64,000 nucleotides of DNA, from positions 310,001 through 374,000 of the forward strand of contig JAJDWH010000036.1 in assembly GCA_022825705.1 (NCBI GenBank), read 5' to 3'. This stretch comes from Alphaproteobacteria bacterium (GTDB lineage Bacteria > Pseudomonadota > Alphaproteobacteria > TMED109). How positions within the stretch are numbered: position 1 is the stretch's first letter; each line of letters starts with the position of its first letter. The notes under the pieces are model-generated. The model had not been told where the DNA came from. It searched no databases and saw only the letters and a list, made by a program, of their open reading frames with translations. This document shows, piece after piece, positions 7,369 through 57,759 of this stretch. Position numbers and translations under genes: made by a program.

Positions 7369-8304
7369 CTACTCGGGGAGCGCCCGAAGCAGCGCCCGTA
7401 CCACTCTCGTCGCGTTGTCAGCGGCCAGCCGGAAGAAGATGTCGAGCTGGTTTCCGGCGGCATTTCCGCCGGCGAGGTCGGACAGGCTGCGGACGGCGAT
7501 GAACGGCACGTCGTTCGCCCAGGCGACGTGCGCCACGGCCGCGCTTTCCATGTCCAGGACGAGGGCCCGGAACGTATTGAACGTGTAGTCGCGGAACGCG
7601 GCATTGTCGATGAAGGCGCCACCGGATACCCCGCTACCACCAATGACGATTTCCGGCGGATTCTGCAGGCAGTTGGCTTCCGACGTGCAGTGTTCGAGGG
7701 TGACGCTGCCGGCGGCAGCGCGGGCCGCGGCGAACATGGTCGGATCCACCGGGAACCAGAACCTCGTCTCCGGCGCCGGCGCGCCCGCCCGTCGCACGGT
7801 CACCGATCGTGGAAACATCATTCCGAAATTCCCGAACGGGTACTCGAAGAAGGGAGGTTTCCTCCAGCCGTGTTCAGTCTCGCGGGCGAAGACGGTTTCC
7901 AGGTACTGCCCCCAGCGATCCGCCACCACCACGTCCCCGATGCTTAACTCGGGGGCCACACCCCCCGCGATGCCCGAAAGCACGATGCGGTCAATGGCAA
8001 AGTGGTCGAGCGCGAGCTGCGCGGTCATCGCCGCGTTCACCATGCTGATACCGCTCAGAAACAGGACGACATCGCGTCCCTCGAGCCGGCCGGTGGTGAA
8101 CTCGACGCCGTTCACCGTGTGGACCGCCGCGCCCGCCAAGTCGTGTTTCAGGATCGTCAGTTCCGGCGCAAAGGCGGACACCACGGCGATGCGGGGGACA
8201 TCGTCACGGGCACCGTGCGCCGGCACGGGCACGGCGGTCGCTTCGGCGATCCAGCCGAAGGCGAGCATTGCGGCGGGCAAGGTCCACAGTCTGCAGATGT
8301 TCAT
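7369..8304 (-). CDS. Secreted nucleoside phosphorylase / MTA-SAH nucleosidase family protein
   Basis: The 311-residue protein starts with a signal peptide (LPAAMLAFGWIAEATA). It then follows the PNP/UDP phosphorylase fold: RIAVVSAFAPELTIL at the start of the domain, VLSGIAGGVAPELSIGDVVVA, and the purine and ribose site ALVLDMESAAVAHVAW with the Met-Glu pair, followed by FIAVRSLSDLAGG containing the catalytic Asp. Most MTA/SAH nucleosidases are cytoplasmic, so the signal peptide is unusual and suggests periplasmic nucleoside scavenging. It appears monocistronic. Confidence 0.82.
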   Translation of the reverse strand: MNICRLWTLPAAMLAFGWIAEATAVPVPAHGARDDVPRIAVVSAFAPELTILKHDLAGAAVHTVNGVEFTTGRLEGRDVVLFLSGISMVNAAMTAQLALDHFAIDRIVLSGIAGGVAPELSIGDVVVADRWGQYLETVFARETEHGWRKPPFFEYPFGNFGMMFPRSVTVRRAGAPAPETRFWFPVDPTMFAAARAAAGSVTLEHCTSEANCLQNPPEIVIGGSGVSGGAFIDNAAFRDYTFNTFRALVLDMESAAVAHVAWANDVPFIAVRSLSDLAGGNAAGNQLDIFFRLAADNATRVVRALLRALPE

Positions 8305-8616
8305 CGTTGTCCCCGTTCAGCCGTGCGCCAAATCCCCTTGAGCCCCCGCCGCAGGCCGCGCCGGCAACGCCCGAAGGTTTCGAGAGGCGAGATCTAGCCT
8401 ACGCGCGGTGGCCGTTGACCGCGATGCATATCACACGGGATTCACCGCACGTATTCCAACAGCCCTGGCGGCGTCTGAGCGGGGGCTCCAGCCCATGGTG
8501 GAAACGGTCCGTCGTAGTGGAGGTGTAGTCCGACTTGCCCGGACCGGTGCCTGTGGCGGATTTCACCCGCATAAAGCGCGACAGTCTGGTTGACAGGACC
8601 GGCCATCGACAAGCTT
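8305..8616. other. Intergenic region between the phosphorylase and the first AAA_14 gene
   Basis: About 310 bases with no supported gene. It would hold the promoters of the leftward phosphorylase and the rightward ATPase. The four-copy repeat begins at its right edge. Confidence 0.5.
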
Positions 8617-8698
8617 ATTCCGAAACGGACGGCCTGCCATCCCGAATTGGACGGCTATATACTCCGAAATGGACGGAAGGATATTCCGAACTGGACGG
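8617..8698 (+). repeat. Four direct repeats at an exact 22-bp period immediately upstream of an AAA_14 ATPase gene
   Basis: Copies of a 16-mer begin at 8617, 8639, 8661 and 8683, so every step is 22 bp. The units are ATTCCGAAACGGACGG, ATCCCGAATTGGACGG, ACTCCGAAATGGACGG and ATTCCGAACTGGACGG; the consensus is AYTCCGAANTGGACGG with unrelated 6-bp spacers. The period is not a multiple of three, so this is not a coding repeat. Two helical turns per unit would put every site on one DNA face. The last copy ends seven bases before the ATG at 8706. A binding-site array is the natural reading. Confidence 0.85.
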
Positions 8699-8705
8699 CC
8701 GATTC

Positions 8706-9980
8706 ATGGCAAAAGGGAAGAGCGTTCTGTCGCGCGACGGGTTGGTACAGCGGCACGCTGAACCCAAGGTCATCAGGGCGCTGGCAGACACGCGCGTGAC
8801 GGCCATTGTCGGTCCGCGCCAATCCGGCAAAACCACGCTGGCTCGTCGAATCGCTGATCGGGACGGGCGCTCGTTCGTCACGCTCGATGAAGCGCAGTAC
8901 AGACGGTTTGCCAACCATGACCCCGACGGCTTTATGCGCGGTCTGGAGTACGCGGTAATCGATGAAATCCAGCGTGCTCCCGACGTCATTCTCGCCATCA
9001 AGAAGGCGGTTGATGAAGACCCCAAGCCGGGACGTTACTTGATCACCGGTTCGGCCGACCTGTTCACGGGGACGCTTTCACCCGATTCACTGGCAGGCCG
9101 AGTGGAGATCGTGCAGCTCCTGCCGTTCGCGCAGTCGGAGATCGCCGGCACCCAGGCGATCGATTTTCTCGACCGGGCTTTTGCGGGAGATTTCCCTGCC
9201 ACCGCCGCGACCGGACCCACGGAAGACCTGGTGGAGCGCGTCATTTCGGGTGGGTTCCCGGAGGCGCTTTCCCGGGGCAATCCCGGGCGTCGTCGTAGCT
9301 GGTTGCTCGCATACGTCCGCTCCCTGGCCGAACGCGATGCGGCGGAGATTGCCGCTGTTGAGAGGCCGGCGATGATCAGCCGGCTGATCGAATCGGCTGC
9401 AGCGACCGCGGGGCAGCTGACGAATGCATCGCGGCTGGGGATGCAGCTCGGAGTCGACAGCAAGACCATTGCCCGCTGGATCACGGTGCTCGAGCAGATG
9501 TTCCTGGTTCGACGGATCCGGGCGTGGCACCGAAACGACCTGAAGAGGCTGGTCAAGACCCCCAAGCTGCAGTTTCTGGATTCCGGTCTGCTGGCCGCGT
9601 TGCGGCGGGCGGACGCGGCCCGTCTGGCGGCGGATCGACAGACCTTGGGCCCGCTTCTCGAATGCTTCGTGCATGCGGAACTGGCCAAGGTCGCGGCGCT
9701 AACCGACACGCCGACGTCCCTCTACCACTTCCGGGACAAGGACCAGATGGAGGTTGATTTCGTGGCGGAACGACCGGCCGGCGAAATTGTCGGCATCGAA
9801 GTGAAAGCTGCTGCAACCGTGCGGCCCAAAGATTTCCGGGGGCTTGCCCGACTGGAAAAGGTCGCCGGGGAACAATTCGCCTGCGGCATCCTCCTGCATG
9901 ACGGCGACCGCGTTCAACGCGTATCCGCCAGAATGTTCGCGATGCCGGTCGGGATGTTGTGGCACCCCCAGTCGGGCTGA
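8706..9980 (+). CDS. AAA_14 / DUF4143 ATPase
   Basis: The 424-residue product has a Walker A VGPRQSGKTT (about residues 35-44), a Walker B YAVIDEIQ (82-89) and a sensor-like LITGSADLF. A winged-helix-like middle is followed by the DUF4143 C-terminus with VEVDF and EVKAA-type residues (MEVDFV...GIEVKAA), a PD-(D/E)XK-like pattern. The ATG at 8706 is chosen because homology starts there; the open frame extends back to 8535 through the repeat array. Such ATPases are widespread in variable regions and their role is not established. A second one is at 56524. Confidence 0.88.
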   Translation: MAKGKSVLSRDGLVQRHAEPKVIRALADTRVTAIVGPRQSGKTTLARRIADRDGRSFVTLDEAQYRRFANHDPDGFMRGLEYAVIDEIQRAPDVILAIKKAVDEDPKPGRYLITGSADLFTGTLSPDSLAGRVEIVQLLPFAQSEIAGTQAIDFLDRAFAGDFPATAATGPTEDLVERVISGGFPEALSRGNPGRRRSWLLAYVRSLAERDAAEIAAVERPAMISRLIESAAATAGQLTNASRLGMQLGVDSKTIARWITVLEQMFLVRRIRAWHRNDLKRLVKTPKLQFLDSGLLAALRRADAARLAADRQTLGPLLECFVHAELAKVAALTDTPTSLYHFRDKDQMEVDFVAERPAGEIVGIEVKAAATVRPKDFRGLARLEKVAGEQFACGILLHDGDRVQRVSARMFAMPVGMLWHPQSG

Positions 9981-10017
9981 TCCGTCACGTCGGCCCGCCC
10001 GCCCGGGACACGTCGGA

Positions 10018-11013
10018 TCAGCGGAGAGGGGAGAGGTTGGCGAGGAACTGTCGGGCGCTCGCGTCCCATCCGCGCCCTTCGGCGAAACGCCGGCAGGTGA
10101 CGCGGTCCAATTTGAGGGCCGCGCGTGCGGCCCTGCCCAAGTCGTGGTCGAGAACGGCGACCTCGGGGGCATCGCCGACCACGTCGAGCGGTCCCGGCAC
10201 CGGATAGGCCGCGACGGGTACGCCGCAGGCAAGCGCTTCCAGCATCACGTTGCCGAACGTGTCGGTGCGGCTCGGAAAGACGAACACGTCGGCTTGCGCG
10301 TATGTGCGGGCGAGGTCGTCTCCGGTTCGGGTGCCCGGGAACTCGACGTCGGGAAAGCGACGTCTGAGGGACTCCCTCGCCGGTCCGTCACCCACCACCA
10401 TTTTTCGTCCCGGCAGCTTCAGCCCGAGAAACGCCTCCAGGTTCTTCTCGACGGCAACCCGACCGACTGTCAGCCAAAGCGGGCTGTCCGGCACACGATC
10501 GAGACACCTGGGGTGAAACAGCGACGTGTCCACGCCGCGACCCCAGAGCCGGACCCGTCCGAATCGCCGCTGTTCGAGTTCGGCGACCAGTCTCGGCGTC
10601 GCGGCCATCACGGTGGCGGCCCGCCGATGAAACCGCCGCAGGATGGCGTAACCCAGCGAGTCCGGCAGGCCGGTCCGCGCCTTGAGGTATTCGGGAAAGC
10701 GGGTGTGGAACGAGGTGGTGAAGGGTGTGGACGAACGGCGACACCACCGGCGCGCCGCCCAGCCGAGGGGTCCTTCGGTCGCGATGTGGACGGCTTCCGG
10801 CCGGAAGGCCTCGATGGCGCCGCGCACGCGCCACGGATTGAGGGCAATCCGAATCTCCCGGTAGGTCGGGAGCGGTGCCGTCCGGAAGCCGTCCGGTCCG
10901 ATGACCCGGACCGTGTGTCCGAGCGCCCGGAGTTCCCGCTCGAGCGCGGTGAACGTGCGAACCACCCCGTTGATCTGCGGGTGCCAGGCATCCGAGATGA
11001 TCAGGATGCGCAT
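10018..11013 (-). CDS. Glycosyltransferase family 4 (GT-B), MgtA-like
   Basis: The 331-residue enzyme starts MRILIISDAWHPQINGVVRT, the N-terminus of GT4 mannosyl/glucosyl transferases that act on lipids. It has TSFHTRFPEYL, LWGRGVDTSLFHP, LTVGRVAVEKNLEAFLGL, and the nucleotide-sugar site DVFVFPSRTDTFGNVMLEALACGVPV with the EX7E pattern. It probably transfers a hexose to a lipid acceptor at the inner membrane. It lies six bases after the LpxH-like phosphoesterase gene on the same strand, a pairing that suggests joint work on envelope lipids. Confidence 0.88.
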   Translation of the reverse strand: MRILIISDAWHPQINGVVRTFTALERELRALGHTVRVIGPDGFRTAPLPTYREIRIALNPWRVRGAIEAFRPEAVHIATEGPLGWAARRWCRRSSTPFTTSFHTRFPEYLKARTGLPDSLGYAILRRFHRRAATVMAATPRLVAELEQRRFGRVRLWGRGVDTSLFHPRCLDRVPDSPLWLTVGRVAVEKNLEAFLGLKLPGRKMVVGDGPARESLRRRFPDVEFPGTRTGDDLARTYAQADVFVFPSRTDTFGNVMLEALACGVPVAAYPVPGPLDVVGDAPEVAVLDHDLGRAARAALKLDRVTCRRFAEGRGWDASARQFLANLSPLR

Positions 11014-56489: not shown

Positions 56490-56532
56490 ATCGCCCATCT
56501 TATGAGCGATAATCGCTCACGATATGGGCGAT
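56490..56532. promoter_or_regulatory. 43-bp nested palindrome spanning the AAA_14 start codon
   Basis: Four copies of the 9-mer ATGRGCGAT (one with G for A at position 1) alternate in orientation: 56490-56498 (-), 56502-56510 (+), 56512-56520 (-), 56524-56532 (+). The centre is base 56511, flanked by perfect TGAGCGAT / ATCGCTCA arms. Starts step by 12, 10 and 12 bases. The fourth copy contains the ATG (56524) of the following ATPase, so binding or RNA folding here would affect both transcription and translation. Confidence 0.85.
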
Positions 56533-57759
56533 CAGCAGTACCTCCCTCGAGTCGCCTCGCGACTGCTTGAGCGCGCTTTGGCCGCGTCACCGGTCGTCGT
56601 CCTGATGGGTGCCCGTCAGACCGGCAAGAGTACGCTGGTGCAGGCCGAGCCGTTTCTCGACGATCGTCTCTACCTGACGCTCGACGACCTTGGGGTTCGG
56701 GAGCGCGCGCGAATGAGCCCTGATGACCTGGTCAGGAGCGCCGACCGGATCATTCTCGATGAGGTTCAGCGCGAGCCGGACCTGCTTCTCGCGGTCAAGC
56801 GCGCGGTGGATGAGGACCGTCCCCGCAAGAACGGCCGCTTCGTTCTCACGGGCTCCGCCAACCTGCTGCTGATGCACCGTGTCTCGGAGTCTCTGGCCGG
56901 CCGGGCAACCTACGTCAATCTGTGGCCACTGACCCGCCGGGAGCGGATGGGACATGGCCGTGCCGGAATCTGGAGCGAGTTCTTCTCGGCAGCCGTTTCC
57001 AAATGGCCTGAACTTGTTGCATCCAGGCCGGCCGCACCGGCGAGTTGGCAGGACGAGGTGCGCCGCGGCGGATATCCGACTCCGGCAGCGGAACTACCGG
57101 GAGATGACGCCCGCGCGCTGTGGTTCGACGGCTACCTTCGCACCTACCTTGAGCGTGATCTCCAGACCGTTGCAGCGATCAGCAACCTGGTCGATTTCCG
57201 GCGCCTCATGCGCGTCGCCAGCCTGCGTCTTGGGACCGTGGTCAACCAGACCGGATTGGGTCGCGACACCCAGATCCCGCGCGCGACGGTGCAGCGCTAC
57301 CTGAATTTGCTCGAAGCTTCCTTCCAGTTGGTACGCGTTGAAGCCTATGCGCTCAGCGGCACCAAACGGCTGGTCAAAAGCCCGAAGCTCTATTGGAGCG
57401 ATCCGGGACTCGCCCTTTGGCTGGGCGGTGCCGACACTGCTTCCGGAGCCCATCTCGAGAACCTGATCCTGAGCGACCTCCTGGTGTGGCGCGATAGTCA
57501 GATTCCCGCTCCCGAGGTCCTGTTTTGGCGCACCGCCACCGACCTCGAGGTCGATTTCGTGCTCGAGACCCGTGGCGGTCTCTTGCCAGTCGAAGTCAAA
57601 GCTGCTGCGAGCCCCGGCTTTGCCGATACCCGGGGACTGCGGGCGTTTCGGGAGGAATACCGGGACCAGTTTGTCGGTGGCCTGCTGCTCCATGGCGGGA
57701 GCCAGACGCAGTGGATGTCCGATGAGATCCTCGCTGTTCCCTGGTGGCGGGTGCTGTAG
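56524..57759 (+). CDS. AAA_14 / DUF4143 ATPase (second copy)
   Basis: The 411-residue protein has Walker A MGARQTGKST (about residues 28-37), Walker B RIILDEVQ, sensor FVLTGSANLL, a DUF4143 region (LVDFRRLMRVASLRLGTVVN, RLVKSPKLYWSDPGLALWLG) and LEVDFV...LPVEVKAAA near the C-terminus. It has the same architecture as the gene at 8706 but is clearly diverged. The start codon lies in the palindrome. It precedes the hipBA pair. Confidence 0.88.
   Translation: MGDQQYLPRVASRLLERALAASPVVVLMGARQTGKSTLVQAEPFLDDRLYLTLDDLGVRERARMSPDDLVRSADRIILDEVQREPDLLLAVKRAVDEDRPRKNGRFVLTGSANLLLMHRVSESLAGRATYVNLWPLTRRERMGHGRAGIWSEFFSAAVSKWPELVASRPAAPASWQDEVRRGGYPTPAAELPGDDARALWFDGYLRTYLERDLQTVAAISNLVDFRRLMRVASLRLGTVVNQTGLGRDTQIPRATVQRYLNLLEASFQLVRVEAYALSGTKRLVKSPKLYWSDPGLALWLGGADTASGAHLENLILSDLLVWRDSQIPAPEVLFWRTATDLEVDFVLETRGGLLPVEVKAAASPGFADTRGLRAFREEYRDQFVGGLLLHGGSQTQWMSDEILAVPWWRVL

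Follow-up and report, generated by a model that had tools for sequence, protein, structure and literature searches.

A Direct-Repeat Array Before a PDC-S01 ATPase-Nuclease Gene as a Probable Operator for Its Own Product

Introduction

Direct repeats placed about two helical turns apart resemble replication iterons and transposase-binding sites. For example, iteron-binding replication initiators and Tn7-type end-binding proteins work with direct-repeat arrays whose units lie some 22 bp apart, and MalT binds repeated boxes at promoters. Among the systems linked to defence, RptR is reported to be a defence-island autorepressor, which represses its own promoter through three direct repeats, two of them overlapping the -10 box (PMC12255303). 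RptR is a homodimeric repressor, with 9-bp repeats arranged around TAGCTA (PMC12255303).

A survey of defence systems describes S01 as an ATPase fused to a member of the PD-(D/E)xK group and ranks it fourth in frequency among the defences of prokaryotes, PDC-S01 being counted in 29,494 bacterial and 9,986 archaeal systems, with validation still pending for most such defence candidates (PMC12988326). PDC-S01 is also given as the most frequent individual locus in rumen genomes (PMC13356809).

Here we describe an array of direct repeats immediately before a PDC-S01 gene in a window of 64,000 nucleotides, i.e., the whole stretch of DNA that was analysed, from contig JAJDWH010000036.1 of an alphaproteobacterium, together with its recurrence among homologous genes and the manner in which the repeated units vary with the protein.

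The Array and Its Gene

The first-pass annotation had described four 16-bp units spaced by exactly 22 bp and ending seven bases before an AAA_14 ATPase gene, and this description was confirmed (Table 1). The 6-bp spacers between the units are CCTGCC, CTATAT, and AAGGAT, the ATG of the AAA_14/DUF4143 gene lies at 8706, and two of the four units differ from the annotated consensus, by one base each. The best three-copy periodicity of the array region is 22 bp, with a score of 0.88; no shuffle out of 200 scored as high (p = 0.005, the lowest value that the test allows), and the same test on the stretch 400-630 nt upstream gave p = 0.84.

When a two-unit pattern was searched with up to three mismatches over the whole 3.49-Mb genome, it recovered the array, in three overlapping placements, and one additional match with three mismatches, while its reversed control had no matches. 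This search found no second array in the genome, and the idea of a genome-wide set of arrays was rejected, given that there is only one. The single unit, with up to three mismatches, has six matches in the window against 4.4 expected, and a genome-wide search for the 13-mer with one mismatch gave 66 matches, compared with 32 when the pattern was reversed. These single-unit counts are unremarkable, and it is therefore the spacing rather than the unit that makes the array stand out.

A scan of 8300-8800 with the sigma-70 consensus returned one promoter-like match against a mean of 0.2 in shuffles, which counts as a match to the consensus only and not as evidence of function. It lies within the direct repeats at 8617-8698, and its second hexamer (8658-8663) starts in the spacer that follows unit 2 and ends within unit 3.

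Table 1. Features of the locus in window coordinates, and the loci of the Fic-type arrangement
Feature	Position	Strand	Detail	Basis
Segment with gene and array	8323..10030	.	At the site in 4/7 genomes of the genus, not found in 3	
Array unit 1	8617..8632	+	ATTCCGAAACGGACGG	Sequence
Array unit 2	8639..8654	+	ATCCCGAATTGGACGG	Sequence
Array unit 3	8661..8676	+	ACTCCGAAATGGACGG	Sequence
Array unit 4	8683..8698	+	ATTCCGAACTGGACGG	Sequence
Sigma-70-like promoter match	8634..8663	+	CTGCCA-18-TATACT, inside the array	Consensus scan of 8300-8800
ATP-binding protein, AAA_14 + DUF4143, PADLOC PDC-S01	8706..9980	+	424 aa	PDLC04790, E 1e-154
AAA_14 ATPase domain	8790..9143	+	Residues 29-146	Profile match, conservation in 18 sequences
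Predicted winged helix-turn-helix	9366..9575	+	Residues 221-290	AlphaFold2 secondary structure
Predicted recognition helix	9459..9497	+	Residues 252-264; Lys253 codon 9462-9464	
PD-(D/E)xK-like nuclease domain	9636..9899	+	Residues 311-398	Conservation of E319, D351, E365, K367; AlphaFold2 model
Fic-type loci			L083, L084, L087, L092, L093, L094, L105, L107, L114, L123, L135, L137, L138, L140	

The encoded protein belongs to the candidate family PDC-S01 by a match to the whole-protein PADLOC profile PDLC04790, which spans residues 12-420 with 513 bits (E 1.2e-154), and it also matches, above both cut-offs, AAA_14 (81 bits, residues 29-146) and DUF4143 (148 bits, residues 209-368). The residues G41 K42 T43 T44, which we take to be the Walker A motif, and D86 E87, presumably Walker B, are invariant across 18 sequences, as are E319, D351, E365, and K367, so that, with these residues assigned by us to the ATPase and PD-(D/E)xK motifs, both signatures appear intact. 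All of the ten proteins scanned, array-bearing and array-free, had PDLC04790 as their best match, and the PADLOC models do not separate the two kinds.

The AlphaFold2 model, built from a 42-row alignment, has a mean pLDDT of 90 and a pTM of 0.91. It places helices at 221-233, 241-248, and 252-264 and strands at 268-271 and 287-290, and the helices 221-264 with the strands 268-290 are predicted to form a winged helix in which 252-264 would be the recognition helix; residues 243-301 weakly match a solved transcriptional regulator, 2fbh (E 0.025). Within the nuclease-like domain, the model has a hairpin between strands 338-344 and 349-355, with Lys345 (codon 9738-9740) in it. A search of predicted viral structures returned weak AAA+ matches only.

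The segment that holds both the gene and the array is of variable occurrence within the genus. In the three genomes without it, homology resumes at 10030-10034, and one of the three also shows the left edge, near 8322; gene and array were gained or lost jointly at this one site. The source genome has nine DUF4143 matches, and significant direct-repeat arrays were found at two of the five with upstream DNA inspected, i.e., the window locus and C34:49958.

Recurrence Among Homologues

The first-pass annotation would have been refuted had its homologues shown no periodic repeats upstream, and this was not the case. The periodicity test covered periods of 12-40, with significance at p ≤ 0.01, and in a first sample of the class (289 genomes, 32 of them with a match at E ≤ 1e-30, to which further copies were added) 21 of 48 homologues were significant, 12 at 23 bp, nine at 22 bp, and none at any other period, with none of 44 control stretches significant. 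The larger set was extended by sampling the phylum and also the phyla to which four further genomes belong (349, 148, 149, 145, and 149 genomes), as well as 20 genomes reached through array hits, for a total of 166 unique homologues, 164 of them tested; the homologues of the wider phylum samples were kept at E ≤ 1e-50 only, which favours nearer homologues. In this set, 72 of the 164 were significant, 27 at 22 bp, 43 at 23 bp, and two elsewhere, compared with two of 156 control stretches (at 13 and 39 bp) and six of 154 stretches after the stop codon (one at 22 bp and two at 21 bp).

As the 164 homologues include some from genomes reached through array hits (L157-L186), these were omitted to give a set of 134, in which 58 are significant at 22 or 23 bp and two at other periods. 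The controls of this set had none of 126 significant at 22/23 bp, and none of 124 after the stop codon, with two and three, respectively, at other periods. By distance, significant arrays at 22/23 bp occur in 57 of the 83 nearer homologues compared with one of the 51 distant ones, and at p ≤ 0.05, in the fuller set, a 22/23-bp array is missing from 22/98 of the nearer homologues and from 60/66 of the distant ones. Among 262 other open reading frames, which were six-frame frames of at least 200 aa and not all real genes, none was significant at 22/23 bp and five were at other periods. A further control, from the other reading frames of loci fetched by pattern, was discarded as invalid, given that those loci had been chosen for their arrays (21 of 283 significant, 15 at 22 bp).

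Such arrays are not peculiar to this locus and characterise a portion of the gene family. Many of the nearer homologues carry repeats of their own, which differ in sequence, and the same step is found in several phyla. The number of units is three to seven per array (82 arrays at p ≤ 0.05), and the median identity to the window protein is 47% for the 22-bp class and 39% for the 23-bp class. The earlier idea that all units face the same side of the helix is roughly right for 22 bp (about 2.1 turns), but fits 23 bp more poorly, which is the period of 43 of the 70 significant 22/23-bp arrays; given how common the 23-bp step is, a fixed protein-to-protein step seems the more apt description.

The end of the array core lies at a median of 11 nt before the first in-frame ATG or GTG (range -1 to 57) in 51 of 54 arrays, with no such codon found in the other three. 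TATAAT-like hexamers were counted by spacer from the gene end and are most frequent in the second inter-unit spacer, with 11/54, compared with 2/54 and 3/54 closer to the gene and 5/34 and 1/12 beyond it; upstream of the arrays, such a hexamer was found in 1/54. The 80 nt next to the start contain an inverted repeat (p ≤ 0.05) in 25 of the 71 homologues without an array, compared with eight of 79 array-bearing ones and seven of 150 controls, and 46 of the 71 array-free homologues have neither an array nor an inverted repeat. Repeated sites at the start of many members' own genes are what self-regulation predicts.

A second gene of the PDC-S01 type is present in the window at 56524-57759 (L062 525-1760). 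It has no array, and a short inverted repeat, TGAGCGAT-A-ATCGCTCA, stands just before its ATG (p 0.07 when taken alone). In Thermus, no array of this kind was seen by eye in the 320 nt upstream of the DUF4143 gene TT_P0211, which is up 6.6-fold with plasmid DNA in an Argonaute-bearing strain (PMC4406477).

Arrays Found by Pattern

The reverse search, one run of a two-unit pattern over the genome_contigs collection, returned 67 stretches. An AAA_14/DUF4143 frame follows just downstream on the same strand in 36 of them, and 31 are without an intact adjacent AAA_14 gene, which in part bears out the second refuting case of the first-pass annotation, that of the same repeats occurring elsewhere with no ATPase beside them. 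Fourteen of the 31 are loci of the Rhodobacteraceae in which a two-unit array of the CTTTCAAT type stands before a Fic-type gene (Table 1), identified by Pfam in L105 (DUF4172 and Fic) and by the N-terminus in the other loci. These genes often lie behind DUF1403- and ScpB-like genes, for which Pfam gave DUF1403 and ScpB in L083 and ScpB in L114. The search of 13 genomes with this arrangement found one with a close homologue of the ATPase (45% identity), three with homologues near 35%, and four with weaker ones, and in the remaining five there was no homologue at E ≤ 1e-20.

By eye, L108 looks like a truncated copy of a neighbouring gene start (compared with L100) and L141 like a decayed AAA_14 start, although in neither did tblastn at E ≤ 1e-3 recover any part of AAA_14. 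The other 15 of the 31 fit none of these descriptions, L115 among them. At L115 (4278-5714), the two-unit array follows an AAA_14 gene rather than preceding it, some 180 nt past the end of the gene. The gene-less arrays indicate that the array is separable from the gene, which a self-operator does not fully explain.

Two further observations concern Fic genes. On a plasmid of Rhodoferax antarcticus (L306 67-2778), a Fic-annotated gene lies directly upstream of a PDC-S01 gene, which connects Fic with this family a second time, and in Sulfitobacter sp. EhC04 (L140 3244-6546) a Cas9-like frame follows the Fic cassette (judged by eye on the first part of its translation).

Covariation of Unit and Protein

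Motif distance follows protein distance (Mantel r 0.74, reached by 0/2000 permutations) over 69 arrays, which, like the 44-sequence set below, still include some loci from array-reached genomes. Where protein identity is at least 60%, the mean motif similarity is 0.82 within phyla (119 pairs) and 0.79 across them (61 pairs). In 20 pairs of paralogues from the same genome, motif similarity is 0.21 to 0.72, matching their lower protein identity; the window gene, compared with its paralogue of 48% identity, gives 0.53.

For comparisons at the level of residues, units were aligned automatically to the seed consensus in a common 15-column register, and the 24 of 109 arrays with scores below 0 were dropped, leaving 85 sequences, with L273 and L188 kept despite low scores. 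At unit position 4, proteins with lysine at residue 253 have C in 15 of 16 cases, those with valine T in 28 of 29, and those with glutamine A in nine of ten; at position 5, proteins with aspartate at residue 251 have G in 13 of 14, and those with asparagine or serine C in 56 of 57. Some loci among these 85 sequences were retrieved with a pattern that constrains positions 4 and 5, and a recount in 44 non-redundant sequences that leave these out gave seven of seven for K with C, 7/8 for V with T, 6/7 for Q with A, and 5/6 for D with G.

Overall protein distance was then regressed out in a set of 56 sequences (score of at least 2, L273 and L188 again kept, one sequence per 85% identity). Of the columns compared, K253 ranked first for position 4 (0.37, the next column 0.27) and K345 first for position 10 (0.58, the next 0.39), and residue 251 was outside the top ten columns for position 5. 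In the 44 sequences, K253 (0.35) and K345 (0.60) again lead, and Q347 is fourth for position 12 (0.26); the values of K253, K345, and Q347 were reached by 0, 0, and 1 of 1000 permutations, with 42 of the 44 sequences in one permutation cluster, so that these permutations hardly control relatedness and the regression alone does so. A partial Mantel test on sliding segments did not single out the winged helix, its best segment being 331-355 (partial r 0.31). By mutual information with average-product correction, columns 141, 406, 68, and 33 score about as high as 251 and 253, and this ranking mixes likely contact columns with lineage columns.

L226 is closer to the proteins of the TTTCAAT type (54-59% identity, against 47-49%), yet has an array of the TCCGAA type. 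Of some 45 discriminating columns, it shares with the TTCCGAA-type group its states at 251, 253, 270, 304, and 378. L273 and L188, with TTCCGA arrays, also carry D251 and K253, and the pairing of D-x-K with TTCCGA may be one ancestral state rather than the product of repeated changes. When 14 held-out proteins were predicted, K253 gave C correctly in four of four, and position 4 was right in 7/14 and position 5 in 4/14. The misses are due mainly to rhizobial proteins with S251 and V253, whose word, TT[AT]AAAT, was hardly present in the training set, and the residue code is thus partial.

A Probable Self-Operator and Its Alternatives

The unit sequence changes along with the region of the protein that putatively reads DNA, which points to a protein able to recognise its own promoter and to control it. 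We consider it probable, on comparative grounds, that the array is a self-operator, bound head to tail by the ATPase-nuclease through its winged helix and probably also its hairpin, and likely to control the promoter of the gene itself. The first-pass annotation had offered the array as either the target or the regulator of the ATPase, and the covariation with recognition-helix residue 253 favours such a relationship, with the reservation that the residue code succeeds only in part on the held-out set.

In the mechanism we infer, the winged helix would contact the first half of each unit, TTCCGAA, and the hairpin of the C-terminal PD-(D/E)xK domain would probably contact the second half, GGACGG, with one protomer per unit, head to tail, and the step constant at 22 bp, or at 23 bp in the sister clades. 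The bound oligomer would most likely repress its own gene, cooperatively, since the array both overlaps the likely promoter and extends up to the start codon, and release may follow when the ATP state, titration by other DNA, or infection alters the complex. The protein may also have a role in defence. A broader generalisation is advanced only tentatively, and we regard it as rather doubtful: PDC-S01 members may be ATPase-nucleases that read a clade-specific bipartite DNA word with the winged helix and the nuclease-domain hairpin, and assemble head to tail on the 22/23-bp ladder at their own promoter as the off-state of a self-contained sensor-effector, in which case one gene would be repressor, switch, and effector at once, mobile with a private, lineage-specific operator.

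On the other hand, the protein may bind the array for the purpose of enzymatic action, whether as an iteron-like site at which an AAA+ oligomer is loaded or DNA is cut, or as the end of a mobile unit. The invariance of the nuclease residues in 18 sequences would fit such a role, as would the gain and loss of gene plus array at one site in the genus and the existence of arrays without the gene or, at L115, downstream of it. Nevertheless, array cores lie within a few tens of nucleotides of the start codon, the regions after the stop have no significant array at 22/23 bp in 124 (one of 154, at 22 bp, in the fuller set), and there is no second array in the genome, so we hold this explanation to be unlikely. 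The end of a transposon or insertion sequence in particular was rejected, as it would call for matching repeats at both ends, and the genome has no second array and the regions after the stop no significant 22/23-bp array. Somewhat more improbable still is an operator for another regulator, encoded by the host, which draws its appeal from the Fic cassettes, given that these have the same units and that 12 of the 13 genomes searched with such a cassette yielded no close homologue. A host protein of this kind would sit poorly with a motif that follows the ATPase about equally well between phyla and inside one, and with residues 253 and 345 being the best of the compared columns for unit positions 4 and 10.

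A chance, coding, or RNA origin, such as slippage repeats, a coding repeat, a CRISPR fragment, or a structured leader, is very improbable. An open frame of 481 aa from the TTG at 8535 does cross the array, and a relative that is 92% identical (L065) retains the ATG at 8706. A coding repeat was rejected because the step of 22 is not a multiple of three, and the step holds at 22 or 23 in spite of the divergence among units; an RNA element was rejected because the region 8300-8800 has no Rfam match at E ≤ 1, and the step also recurs with different units in several phyla. The self-operator accordingly remains the preferred reading of the array.

Comparison with Known Systems

PDC-S01 is among the most widespread of the uncharacterised genes linked to defence, and a self-operator with a partly readable code would provide the first biochemical handle on it, i.e., a known DNA ligand for binding, structural, and reporter work. 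Such a code would also show which residues read DNA, and would flag likely functional members from their sequence.

The best Foldseek matches of the model include 2qen, 2fna, NRC4, MalT (8bob), and RPP1, which we take to be STAND ATPases, and also RuvB, with modest TM-scores of 0.2-0.5 (TMt 0.52 for 2qen). The protein may have a certain likeness in fold to the STAND ATPases (the archaeal PABY2304 and SSO1545, MalT, and the plant NLRs), although we know of none that has a C-terminal PD-(D/E)xK domain or a winged helix that covaries with DNA. In contrast with the iteron and Tn7-type systems, there is no second array in the genome here, and none of 124 regions after the stop was significant at 22/23 bp.

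The PDC-S01 genes surveyed in PMC12988326 are of the same family as the window gene, and the available text of that survey mentions neither upstream repeats nor self-recognition. No earlier report of such arrays was found in the literature searched, which did not extend to the preprint that defines PDC-S01 (Payne et al. 2024).

By analogy, the closest described logic would be that of RptR, in which direct repeats at a promoter are read by the product of the gene that they control. The window array differs in that its putative reader is the ATPase-nuclease itself, and in that its units are asymmetric and of 15-16 bp, set at a step of 22 or 23 bp.
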